Source of the DNA: an uncultured Eubacteriales bacterium
GTDB taxonomy: Bacteria > Bacillota > Clostridia > Oscillospirales > Acutalibacteraceae
Assembly: GCA_949741605.1 (NCBI GenBank)
Contig: CATJNB010000102.1
Coordinates: 1 to 34,589 of the forward strand
DNA: 34,589 nucleotides
Direction of reading: 5' to 3'
Part shown: positions 50 through 34,589 of the stretch, one piece after another
Layout of the letters: each line of letters begins with the position of its first letter
Numbering within the stretch: position 1 is the first letter of the stretch
Position numbers and translations under genes: made by a program
Notes under the pieces: generated by a model
Database searches by the model: none
Seen by the model: the letters and a program-made list of their open reading frames with translations, nothing else
Told to the model about the DNA's origin: nothing

Positions 50-2023
50 TCAGGTTGTCTGAGCCCAGTAGGAAGTATTGCGTACAGCCGAGCCATACGG
101 TTTCGAGAGATCCTTTTGCACATCGACCCGTACCGAAGCATGGACGCCATTGATTTCATACAGGATATAACAGGTGCCCGGATTTTTGCCAGTTACCTGA
201 AAATTGCCATTCGGAAGCTGCTGGAGGGTGGCAATCGAACCGGTACGGGAATCGCGTACCTTCAGCTTACCCTCGCGCACCAGCTGCGAAGCATCTACCC
301 GGTTGCCGTTGGCATCACGGACATAGGCACCGATGGTATAGCGGTCGCCGGGAGCCATGGTATAACGGGCTGTATCCAACATAATCGAGCCGCCCACTGG
401 CAACACTTTGACAGACATCACAGCTGTCTGGTCCTTGTATGTGACCTTAATTTGGGTATCGCCGGCTGCCTTGGCATTCACCTGATATTTTGCCCCGCGG
501 GAATCGTTGCCGTCCTGAAGCGCGACGGTAGCAATATTCGGGTTCAGGCTTTCCACTTTCAAGTTGGCGGTATCGTTGTTGCCCCGGACAAGGAACTGGT
601 ATGCACTGACATTGCTGACCATATTGACAGAGCTGGTATCCAGACGGAGCGCAGGTGCCGGCTGGGTAACGGTGACACTCGCGGTACGGGTGCTTTGGGC
701 ACTGAGAACCCGCTGCATAACACCAAGGCAGTTATGTACGGCAACAACACTGTAACTGTATTGGCCAGTCGGTGCGGTCGTATCCGTAAAGGAAAGCTGG
801 TCAGTGGAACCGATCACCTGCCCAGTACCATTGCTGGTATAGCGGTAAATATTATAGCGGTCTGCATTGGGCACGGCATTCCAGCGCAGTTCAACCTGAC
901 TGCCCTCTTTGACTGTTTGCAGCCCGGTAATGGCTGGGGTATCCAGCGTGGTAACATTACAATCCCGTACATAAACAACATTCACATCGGTATTGCCGGC
1001 TTCCGTAGCAGTCCCGGCCATTTTCGAGCGGAAGGTGTACTGCCAAACATCCGACAAAATGCCCATGCCTTTGAGTTCCTTGCGCTGGGAAAAATCGGCG
1101 CTTTCGTTATCGGGATACGCGTACCAAATGGGATAATTGCGCGCACGCAACACATTCAAGTCCATTTTCCGGAATAACACCGTAATCGAATAAACCATGG
1201 GACGGTACCCGGCCTGCTCAATCCGTTCACAGAACGCCACGGCAATATCCGTCAGCTGCTGCTTGGAGAGGCTCTGCATTTGGGTTGTTTCCATGTCAAA
1301 AGCAATGGGCAGGGTCATTTTATCTGCATACTGCGGGATATAATCCCGGATGGCACGCAGGACATAATCCGCTTCCTTCCTTGCATCCTCAACGGTTTGG
1401 GCATAGCTGAAGTGGTACAGCCCAAACGGAATCCCCGTTTCCACAGCGCCCTTGACATTCGCGGCAAAGGTAGCGTCTACTTGATTGGGGTAATTTTCCC
1501 AGCCGTAAGACGAGCGGATAATCGCAAAATCCACGCCCTGTGCTTTGACCTTGTCCCATTCCACAGGCTTACGCATATTATTATGGGTAGAAATATCAAT
1601 GCCGACATAGAAGCCGACCGAGGCAGTACAGCGGATCGTTTCGCCGGTGTTGCTGGTAACAGTGATGTATGCCTGCCCCATGCGCTTGCCGGTAATTTTA
1701 CCGTTCGCGTCCACGGTCGCGATACTTTCATTTTGAGATTTCCATGTACCGTTTTGCACCGGGACATCCAACACAGCCTGTACGCTCTCCCCGACCTTCA
1801 TGCTGAAGTTGGTGCGGGTATTGGCGATAATGCCCCACGGAGCGGGGGCTGGCGTGGTAGGGGTGGTCGTTTCAGCGAGTACGGCAACCGGCTCGTCCGA
1901 GGCTTCGTCCTGCCACATGATGTGCGTGGCGGGGGGTTCCTCCTGCGCGAAAACCGTCATGGGGATAGCAGCAGCCACCATCAGGGCGGAAAGCAGCGCC
2001 GCGAGAACCTTTCTCTTTTTCAT
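50..2023 (-). CDS. Secreted GH25 lysozyme-like protein with Ig-like and FnIII modules
   Basis: Predicted exported muramidase of glycoside hydrolase family 25, which cleaves the MurNAc-GlcNAc bond of peptidoglycan. Residues 1-26 form a signal peptide (MKKRK, hydrophobic stretch, VFA then QEE). Residues about 65-135 resemble a bacterial Ig-like group 2 domain (SIATVDANGKITG). The GH25 domain spans about 137-365, with the YVGIDIS opening, VDFAIIRSSYG, and the acidic pair in IAFDMETT matching the family's DxE active site. A fibronectin type III-like module (about 370-460) and two further beta-rich modules follow (about 470-545 and 548-640). The start ATG has AAGGAG upstream. No sortase motif or membrane anchor is visible, so it may be released or held by the C-terminal modules. 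It could serve cell-wall turnover or attack on neighbours; there is no phage context on this side. The gene appears monocistronic, with its own promoter and terminator. Confidence 0.88.
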   Translation of the reverse strand: MKKRKVLAALLSALMVAAAIPMTVFAQEEPPATHIMWQDEASDEPVAVLAETTTPTTPAPAPWGIIANTRTNFSMKVGESVQAVLDVPVQNGTWKSQNESIATVDANGKITGKRMGQAYITVTSNTGETIRCTASVGFYVGIDISTHNNMRKPVEWDKVKAQGVDFAIIRSSYGWENYPNQVDATFAANVKGAVETGIPFGLYHFSYAQTVEDARKEADYVLRAIRDYIPQYADKMTLPIAFDMETTQMQSLSKQQLTDIAVAFCERIEQAGYRPMVYSITVLFRKMDLNVLRARNYPIWYAYPDNESADFSQRKELKGMGILSDVWQYTFRSKMAGTATEAGNTDVNVVYVRDCNVTTLDTPAITGLQTVKEGSQVELRWNAVPNADRYNIYRYTSNGTGQVIGSTDQLSFTDTTAPTGQYSYSVVAVHNCLGVMQRVLSAQSTRTASVTVTQPAPALRLDTSSVNMVSNVSAYQFLVRGNNDTANLKVESLNPNIATVALQDGNDSRGAKYQVNAKAAGDTQIKVTYKDQTAVMSVKVLPVGGSIMLDTARYTMAPGDRYTIGAYVRDANGNRVDASQLVREGKLKVRDSRTGSIATLQQLPNGNFQVTGKNPGTCYILYEINGVHASVRVDVQKDLSKPYGSAVRNTSYWAQTT

Positions 2024-2245: not shown

Positions 2246-2271
2246 AACCATCCAGAAAGGAGGGAGAGAAC

Positions 2272-2517
2272 ATGTGCTGGATGACATCATGCAGAGGCTG
2301 CGGGTGCCGGGCAAACCGGTGCAACAGCTGGAACTCTTGCGGGTGTGGCTGGAACCGTACTTGCGGCTGTGGGTGCCGCTGCAATCAAAACTGCGGCAAT
2401 CTGGGCTCCTGCAACAACTCCTGCTTCAATAACACCCAAACCAACTGGGAACCTGCCTGCGGCTATGCTGACGAGATTGCCTGCGAGCCTTGCGGCTGTG
2501 GGTGTGGCAACGACTAA
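2272..2517 (+). CDS. Small cysteine-rich protein (81 aa, 19 Cys), function unknown
   Basis: I do not recognise a family. The start is the ATG 8 bases after AAGGAGG, not the longer ORF-track start at 2152, which lacks a ribosome-binding site. The product begins MCWMTSCRGCGC and holds 19 cysteines in 81 residues, mostly as C-x-C pairs in Gly/Asn/Arg context (CGCGCRC in the middle, CGCGCGND at the end). It has no signal peptide or membrane segment. Such density suggests metal binding (metallothionein-like), disulfide cross-linking (spore coat-like), or a peptide precursor. No radical-SAM or other maturase gene is next to it. The gene is flanked by its own terminator and stands alone on the plus strand between two minus-strand units. 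Translation is well supported by the ribosome-binding site and terminator; the role is open. Confidence 0.7.
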   Translation: MCWMTSCRGCGCRANRCNSWNSCGCGWNRTCGCGCRCNQNCGNLGSCNNSCFNNTQTNWEPACGYADEIACEPCGCGCGND

Positions 2518-2541: not shown

Positions 2542-2585
2542 AAAAAGCCATCCTGCCCACCCAGCAGAATGGCTTTTCGTTTTTT
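2542..2585. terminator. Bidirectional terminator between the Cys-rich gene and the lipoprotein pair
   Basis: The stem AAAAAGCCAT(TC)CTG / CAG(A)ATGGCTTTT is followed by TTTTTT on the plus strand and, in the other direction, by the T run opposite the AAAAA. It serves the convergent Cys-rich gene and the DUF4358 gene, whose stop overlaps its right edge. Confidence 0.85.
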
Positions 2586-3048
2586 AAGAAAGGGAAGCAG
2601 ACAAAATCTCGCGTGCCTGCTCCTCAAACCCCGACACGCACAAAATCACCACATCGCCATGCACCAGCACAACCGGATGGTCGAGCTTTGGGATTTCGGC
2701 GGGCTGATAGTCCTGATAGACCGTTTTTTGGGCCTGTACCCGTTCCCGTACAGCCTGTTCGATCCGTACGGCGGCCGCGCTGTCCGTGGCTTTCCAGACG
2801 GAAACCTCATCCACGGTTGCGCCTCCAGTGCCGACATAGACCGCAGCTTCCCTGACATCTTCAGGAGCAATCTCATACAAACGCATGGCAACATCGGTTT
2901 CAATGGGCGAAAGGGGATCGGAAAAAGGGATACCCTGACTGAGCTTTTGGGCGGTGTCCGCAACGGAAAAATCACTGGTTTTTGCAGCGCACCCGGCAAA
3001 CACAAGCGCCACAGCAGTCAAGAGAAAAAGGGCTGCTTTTTGTTTCAT
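2584..3048 (-). CDS. DUF4358-family lipoprotein
   Basis: A 154-residue predicted lipoprotein. The N-terminus is a short signal with lipobox (VFAGC, Cys at about residue 19), so the protein should be lipidated and anchored outside the membrane. The remainder, with features such as YEIAPEDVREAAVYVGTG and a central VSVWKATD, resembles DUF4358, a clostridial family without known enzymatic activity. It starts 16 bases after the stop of the GDSL lipoprotein and is surely cotranscribed with it. In related bacteria DUF4358 genes often sit beside GDSL hydrolases and MBOAT O-acyltransferases, which suggests envelope polymer acylation or deacylation; no MBOAT gene is present here. Family assignment is from memory of sequence character, not a search. 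Confidence 0.75.
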   Translation of the reverse strand: MKQKAALFLLTAVALVFAGCAAKTSDFSVADTAQKLSQGIPFSDPLSPIETDVAMRLYEIAPEDVREAAVYVGTGGATVDEVSVWKATDSAAAVRIEQAVRERVQAQKTVYQDYQPAEIPKLDHPVVLVHGDVVILCVSGFEEQAREILSASLS

Positions 3049-30467: not shown

Positions 30468-30923
30468 TCAATCTTTTTGCGTATCCTCATCGGGATGGTC
30501 ATGATGGCTGTGGGAGTGGTCATGGCCGCACCCGCACGAAAACTCATCAATGACATCATTGATATCAAATTCCAGGCTTTCGCCGCAGTTCGGACAGTCA
30601 ATCTGTCCATTTTCAATGACATCCTCCGACAGGCAAATGGTTTCCTGACACGACGGGCATGTCACTTCATAGTAACATTCTTCTTCGTCCTCGTCGTCAT
30701 CCTCCCCATAGAATTCATCCTCCAGCGCACCCAGATCCTCATCCACGGCATCGAGCTGATCGGCCATATCGTGGTATGCGTGCTCCACATCGGAAATCGA
30801 AAGCGCCATATCCTCGAGCAGCGTGACCATCGCCTGAATCACCTTGACTTCTTTTTTCTCAGCATCCAATTCCAAGCCCTCCATCAGGCCGCGGATATAA
30901 GCTACTCTTTCTAAATTCGTCAT
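30468..30923 (-). CDS. CD1247-like protein with zinc ribbon and His-rich tail
   Basis: ATG 30923 with AAAGGAGG 7 bases upstream gives 151 residues; the ORF-track start lies before that site. The N-terminal helical part (MTNLERVAYIRGLMEGLELD to about residue 75) matches the clostridial CD1247 N-terminal domain. An acidic hinge (EDDDEDEEE) and a two-knuckle zinc ribbon (CPSC...CPNC, about 88-115) follow. The tail ends SCGCGHDHSHSHHDHPDED, a likely metal-binding segment. Such proteins are encoded next to efp in clostridia; the function is not established. The metal motifs suggest zinc binding. It lies 65 bases after efp and before a strong terminator. Confidence 0.82.
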   Translation of the reverse strand: MTNLERVAYIRGLMEGLELDAEKKEVKVIQAMVTLLEDMALSISDVEHAYHDMADQLDAVDEDLGALEDEFYGEDDDEDEEECYYEVTCPSCQETICLSEDVIENGQIDCPNCGESLEFDINDVIDEFSCGCGHDHSHSHHDHPDEDTQKD

Positions 30924-30988
30924 AGAAATACCTCCTTTTTTTGACCATCCTGCCAAACCAAAACCCGGCTTTTCCCAATTATTGTTGG

Positions 30989-33884: not shown

Positions 33885-34589
33885 TTACGCACTGTTTGAC
33901 CCTTTAATTGACCCTTTACAGTTTTTAATAAACGCTTCCATACGGGCCGCACTTTCCGTTTTCATCTTTTCCGTAACATGGCCGTATACGTCAAGAGTAA
34001 ATGCTGCCGTAGCATGCCCCAAATTTTCCTGTACGGTTTTGATGTCGTCGCCCTCCTGCAATGACGTAACGGCGTAAGTGTGTCTTAGGTCGTGGAAACG
34101 GGCTTCCGGTATTCCGATCTCGCAAGCGATCCGCTTAAAATGCTTTATAATCGTACGGGGGACTAGGTTCTTACCGATCTCATCTGTAAACACAAGATTG
34201 GGGGGATTGTTCCAAACGCTCCCGGCTTTCAAACGGTTTGCAGTCTGCTTGTGCTTTTCGTTTTGGAGCACCTTCATGACAAATGGTGCCGGTACAATTA
34301 CCCGTTTCTTTCCGCTCTTCGGACTGATGAAATAATAGTCCCCGTTCTTCTCCTTTTGAAGTTGCTGGCTGACGGTAACAGTGCCTTGCTCAAAATCCAC
34401 ACAACCCCAAGTAAGCCCAAGGATTTCCCCCTCCCTCATTCCGGTGAATAACGTCACCAAAAACAAATTTTGAAACCGTTTCTTTTCCAAAGCCCCCAGA
34501 AAATCAGCGATTGTTGATTCTTCTAGGGGCTTTATTTCTTTGCGTTCCATACGGGGAAGCGTACAGGCAGCAGACGGGTTAAATGGAAT
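33885..34589 (-). CDS. Tyrosine recombinase/integrase, C-terminal part (runs off the window)
   Basis: The frame stays open to the right edge: the 13 codons before the ORF-track Met read IPFNPSAACTLPR without stop, so the N-terminus lies outside and the Met at 34550 is internal. The visible ~234 residues are the catalytic domain of a phage/ICE-type integrase. TLFTGMREGEILGL contains the first catalytic Arg, RFHDLRHTYA gives HxxR, LGHATAAFTLDVYGHV gives the second His and the Tyr nucleophile. The preceding NPSAACTLPR matches the end of the usual core-binding domain. The gene points toward the tRNA-Trp 3' end, with its stop 57 bases beyond. It probably catalyses insertion and excision of an element that continues to the right. 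Confidence 0.93.
   Translation of the reverse strand: MPFNPSAACTLPRMERKEIKPLEESTIADFLGALEKKRFQNLFLVTLFTGMREGEILGLTWGCVDFEQGTVTVSQQLQKEKNGDYYFISPKSGKKRVIVPAPFVMKVLQNEKHKQTANRLKAGSVWNNPPNLVFTDEIGKNLVPRTIIKHFKRIACEIGIPEARFHDLRHTYAVTSLQEGDDIKTVQENLGHATAAFTLDVYGHVTEKMKTESAARMEAFIKNCKGSIKGSNSA

Follow-up and report, generated by a model that had tools for sequence, protein, structure and literature searches.

A short reading frame on the forward strand of a contig from an uncultured Eubacteriales bacterium (positions 2272–2517 of the window, the 34,589-nt stretch of DNA analyzed here) encodes an 81-residue protein with 19 cysteines. We favor, with modest confidence, reading it as a Cys-rich product of late mother-cell expression that cross-links the spore coat or exosporium; on this reading as a whole, the frame is a real, single-gene transcription unit. 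The protein is a new orphan of a known functional kind, and we claim no membership of a named family for it.

An isolated Cys-rich reading frame

The ORF runs from an ATG at 2272 to a TAA ending at 2517 and translates to MCWMTSCRGCGCRANRCNSWNSCGCGWNRTCGCGCRCNQNCGNLGSCNNSCFNNTQTNWEPACGYADEIACEPCGCGCGND, confirming the original prediction of an 81-residue product made up of nearly a quarter cysteine (19/81, 23.5%). The protein also contains 13 Asn, 12 Gly, and 4 Trp, as well as Phe and Tyr, has a pI of ∼6, and lacks His, Lys, Val, and any CC pair. Its seven CxC motifs take in 11 of the 19 cysteines, so that the earlier description of these residues as mostly CxC barely holds. Neither a hydrophobic segment (19-residue hydropathy peaks at 0.31) nor a signal peptide is evident, the latter as had been predicted, and a single-sequence AlphaFold2 model offers no confident structure (mean pLDDT 38), which says little for an orphan.

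A Shine-Dalgarno (SD) sequence, AGGAGG (2258–2263, forward strand), lies 8 nt 5′ of the ATG. The frame stays open further upstream, where an alternative ATG at 2152 would give 121 residues; the start at 2272 is preferred because of the SD position and a promoter-like −10 box at 2212–2220. Downstream, a terminator hairpin (about 2541–2586), with a T tail on the forward strand and a T run on the reverse strand, is common to the ORF and the convergent DUF4358 gene, and the 86-nt stretch containing it (2515–2600) folds at −20.7 kcal/mol (z = −3.8). The strong ribosome-binding site and terminator of the original prediction both stand.

The ORF is alone between a divergent gene for a secreted GH25 lysozyme with Big_2 domains (50–2023, reverse strand; Pfam PF01183, E = 2.1e-24) and the convergent gene for a DUF4358 lipoprotein-like protein (2584–3048, reverse strand; Pfam PF14270, E = 3.7e-23), with a GDSL hydrolase and ppx/ppk as further neighbors. 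No sporulation gene and no metal-transport or metal-sensor gene adjoins it, and its neighbors include neither a maturase (radical-SAM or otherwise) nor a protease or exporter, in line with the earlier remark that no maturation gene lies alongside. Elsewhere in the window, positions 30468–30956 encode a zinc-ribbon protein with a CD1247 N-terminal domain and a CGCGHDHSHSHHDH tail; similar, possibly metal-binding CGCGC/His tails occur in relatives. At the window end (33885–34550), a phage-type tyrosine integrase is represented by its C-terminal part, so an integrated element may begin there.

Length by itself does not set the ORF apart: open stretches of at least 82 codons occur in 79% of dinucleotide shuffles of the intergenic region (2024–2583), and this frequency, together with the lack of homologues in every collection searched, is what speaks for a chance open frame that is no protein-coding gene. 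We consider that explanation very improbable. At least 19 cysteines within an 81-codon open stretch were seen in none of 2000 shuffles, which peaked at 13. Elsewhere in the six frames of the window, 81-codon open stretches have at most 11. Synonymous codon choice is closer to that of the window's other genes than in 99.3% of recodings at background composition (p = 0.007), the SD is ideally spaced, and a promoter-like site and the terminator bracket the frame.

A sigma-K-type promoter-like site and two Cys-rich families

Upstream of the ORF, positions 2190–2220 of the forward strand hold a sigma-K-type promoter-like site composed of GTCACAC (2190–2196), a 15-nt spacer, and CATAGCTTG (2212–2220). 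It resembles the motif found before two other Cys-rich families, GT[AC]ACAC, 14–15 nt, [CA]ATA..AT[AG]. Using a weight matrix built from 18 promoters of these families, with the window's own site excluded, the site ranks first of 69,122 window positions; it scores 10.7 bits, compared with 18.7–25.7 for the training set, and its −10 box retains CATA but not the A that comes later in the family motif. Of ∼945,000 positions scanned in other loci, 43 (training sites included) reach this score, so the chance of an equally good site within ∼150 nt of the correct strand is <1%.

Pattern searches gave a similar picture. A relaxed pattern, GTMACAN{14,17}CATANNNTR, written after the site at 2190 had been seen, has six matches genome-wide, two of which precede Cys-rich genes equipped with an SD: one encoding a ∼273-residue protein (43–46 nt downstream) and the ORF (51 nt). 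With a stricter pattern, nine of 19 matches in six genomes of the genus lie 30–46 nt 5′ of a member of the Cys-rich families (five peptides and four 273-residue proteins), and one other gene, DnaJ-like, is equally placed; the total is modestly enriched (19 vs 12 for a reversed control).

In C. difficile, sigma-K promoters carry AC at −35, and their −10 element resembles that of sigma-E promoters, which have ATA at −35 (PMC3789822). Given AC at −35 and CATA or AATA at −10, the sites described here look sigma-K-like. The promoter-like site of the ORF looks like the sigma-K type by sequence, and late mother-cell expression is the likeliest fate of the gene; the forespore alternative offered originally gains no support. 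Around the presumed transcription start, just past the presumed −10 box, lies a perfect palindrome, CTTGTA-C-TACAAG (2217–2229), a possible regulator site; copies of CTTGTA also occur at about 2170, 2240, and 4323.

Both Cys-rich families surfaced from a search of relatives for the CGCGC codon pattern, and neither matches Pfam or NCBIfam (two peptides and one 273-residue protein were run as representatives). The peptides (41–66 residues, MCN..GGGCSWIIIILILLCC..CGCGC) have good SDs and a single membrane segment; one is encoded in the window's own genome, and their distribution is wide (nine further loci). In the genus, their genes adjoin thiD or asparaginase and ctsR-mcsA-mcsB-like genes. The larger family, marked by KEAVCIDAMRVYDSCSDKDCLEDLRVYF, likewise has good SDs and a copy in the window's own genome; its consensus, KEAVCIDAxRVYDSCSDKDCLEDLRVYF, recurs at six further loci, several copies end in CGCGCGC, a sigma-K-type promoter is often present, and no PDB match was found. 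It is a candidate spore-surface protein, and for both families we infer a spore role from the promoter.

The ORF shares features with each family and is alignable to neither. Like the YjcZ-like CxC peptides of the same bacterial family, including the own-genome copy, it has an MC start, a C/G/N-rich composition, CGCGC near the C terminus, the promoter motif, and a stand-alone setting, but its product has no counterpart of the peptides' hydrophobic membrane segment (CSWIIIILILLCC), and the alignment is compositional only. At the hydropathy given above, the ORF product does not show the YjcZ-like layout, in which a single hydrophobic helix comes after a short N-terminal Cys segment. The 273-residue protein (KEAVCIDA.RVYDSCSDKDCLEDLRVYF) is also Cys-rich and is the best match by common promoter; it is, however, conserved, globular-looking, and more than three times the length of the ORF product, with no alignable similarity. 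In one further genome (G040), an 82-residue protein, MCCNNNWNGN...GGCGCRCRNWSRCCGCGCDCDCR, is encoded downstream of thiD (locus L142, start at ∼3296); it is close to the ORF product in size and has a Cys-rich C-terminal tail, and the two are not alignable.

The window's own genome encodes SpoIVA (E = 6.5e-119), as do all six genomes of the genus, and sigK scores above the curated cut-off in two genus-mates (G002 and G004); the marker YabG was not found in the genus. The own genome contains sigK in pieces: the sigK contig begins with exactly 99 nt that also form the end of a contig carrying a recombinase, so a skin-like element probably interrupts the gene. This overlap falls inside sigK at about residue 65, and the recombinase at the contig end is a 555-residue serine recombinase. 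The element is probably different from that of genus-mate G001, in which sigK is also split (contig C63, 11500–22000): its two parts, covering model positions 5–115 and 108–226, are separated by ∼8.6 kb on the same strand; a 572-residue serine recombinase adjoins the C-terminal half, and the skin-like insert includes OpuC-like transporter genes.

Orphan status of the Cys-rich protein

The product has no Pfam, NCBIfam, PHROG, or PADLOC profile match at E ≤ 1, in agreement with the original view that its family is not recognizable. The 97 relatives, 398 family genomes, and 394 order genomes searched (overlapping samples) yielded no credible relative, and neither did GTDB r220, IMG/VR, or phage and plasmid records. 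A PPX search of GTDB r220, an Rfam scan, and a sigma-70 scan gave no match, and solved structures gave composition-type matches only, at E > 0.1.

Weak matches (E 1e-4 to 1e-2) did appear among the 97 relatives and 398 family genomes; most of these were translated, and all of those translated were wrong-frame or unrelated. Two more came from the order search. Of the CGCGC-pattern matches in relatives, none aligns with the ORF beyond composition: they sort into the membrane-segment peptides, the 273-residue family, CD1247-type zinc-ribbon proteins, and wrong-frame noise.

The GDSL–DUF4358 pair is retained in genus-mates G001 and G003, and the Cys-rich ORF is missing at both loci, where DUF4358 is followed by a response regulator/GGDEF gene or a sigma-factor gene. 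According to the original prediction, the lack of a homologous ORF in close relatives would count against the gene; formally none was found, but this result has little power because the only available genus-mates are distant, with neighboring GDSL and DUF4358 proteins 30–48% identical to those of the window. The sequence comparisons suggest that the ORF arose recently or changes too quickly to be followed, and they do not separate the two.

A proposed spore-surface role and its rivals

Across Bacillus and Clostridium, disulfide-linked spore lattices are built by Cys-rich proteins dissimilar in sequence (PMC7333573; PMC4942563), and this spore-surface class is explicitly described as sequence-diverse (PMC7333573). 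Like CsxA/B/C of Clostridium sporogenes, CdeC/CdeM of C. difficile, and CotY/ExsY of Bacillus cereus, the ORF product is Cys-rich without a signal peptide (19/81), and its gene shares with theirs a sporulation-competent genome, as judged from SpoIVA and sigK pieces, and a sigma-K-type promoter, in this case a promoter-like site. The product is far smaller, at 81 residues, than CsxA (299 residues, 25 Cys; PMC4942563), CsxB (151 residues, 10 Cys), and the likewise much larger CdeC, and no collagen-like gene lies beside it. Size excludes full-length homology to CsxA; we regard the protein as analogous to CsxA, CdeC, and CotY/ExsY and claim no homology.

Under the spore-surface reading, the mother cell would transcribe the ORF late in sporulation from the sigma-K-type promoter, and the small, probably unstructured Cys/Gly/Asn-rich product would settle in the spore coat or exosporium. 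There its 19 thiols would form intermolecular disulfides, hardening the layer jointly with the group's other Cys-rich proteins. Sigma-K dependence, spore localization, and disulfide cross-linking are each inferred, and the cross-linking step in particular is presumed by analogy for a disordered protein with 19 cysteines. The CxC/CGCGC composition and MC start, which resemble those of the co-regulated peptides, speak for the same reading. Among the three options originally offered, the spore-coat cross-linker has gained support from the promoter common to the Cys-rich families and from the SpoIVA and sigK-like genes; metallothionein and peptide precursor are weaker readings.

A metallothionein-like cytosolic metal sponge, with CxC thiolates binding Cu(I), Zn(II), or Cd(II), would account for the small size, the Cys content, the seven CxC motifs, the lack of a signal peptide, and the prediction that the protein alone is unstructured, and both bacterial and eukaryotic metallothioneins are small and CxC-dense like the ORF product. 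We nevertheless consider this function unlikely: the absence of His and Lys, the four Trp with Phe and Tyr, and the many Asn are not typical of metallothioneins, no gene for metal transport or sensing adjoins the ORF, and the promoter-like site is of a sporulation type instead. The Pfam search, in which metallothionein models were included, also gave no match at E ≤ 1, although models of short Cys-rich proteins are insensitive. Combining the promoter evidence with the metallothionein-like CxC density, a sigma-K-controlled coat protein whose CxC clusters load metal at the spore surface can be envisaged; such a dual role, with its putative metal binding, appears improbable. As for a Cys-modified or disulfide-rich secreted peptide, a small, Cys-rich orphan ORF is what its precursor might look like, but the gene lacks an adjacent maturase, protease, or exporter, the product has neither a leader/core boundary nor a signal sequence, and neither the NCBIfam precursor models nor the features of Cys-rich RiPPs (e.g. 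SCIFF) fit it, making this the kind of product to which we give the least credence.

In a variant of the spore-surface reading, the ORF would encode a lineage-restricted sporulation protein of recent origin, controlled by a sigma-K promoter. Disordered, it would serve as a disulfide cement between the Cys-rich lattice proteins of a gut spore, possibly also as a metal store. We hold this variant to be distinctly unlikely; if true, it would mean that spore-surface proteins originate de novo or turn over very fast.

To our knowledge, the spore surfaces of gut Clostridia are barely characterized beyond C. difficile, and their structural proteins elude homology searches. If the favored reading of the ORF as a mother-cell spore-surface protein is true, a promoter shared with two widespread Cys-rich families would provide a promoter-based handle for finding spore-surface proteins, orphans included, and a concrete short list of candidates for spore proteomes.
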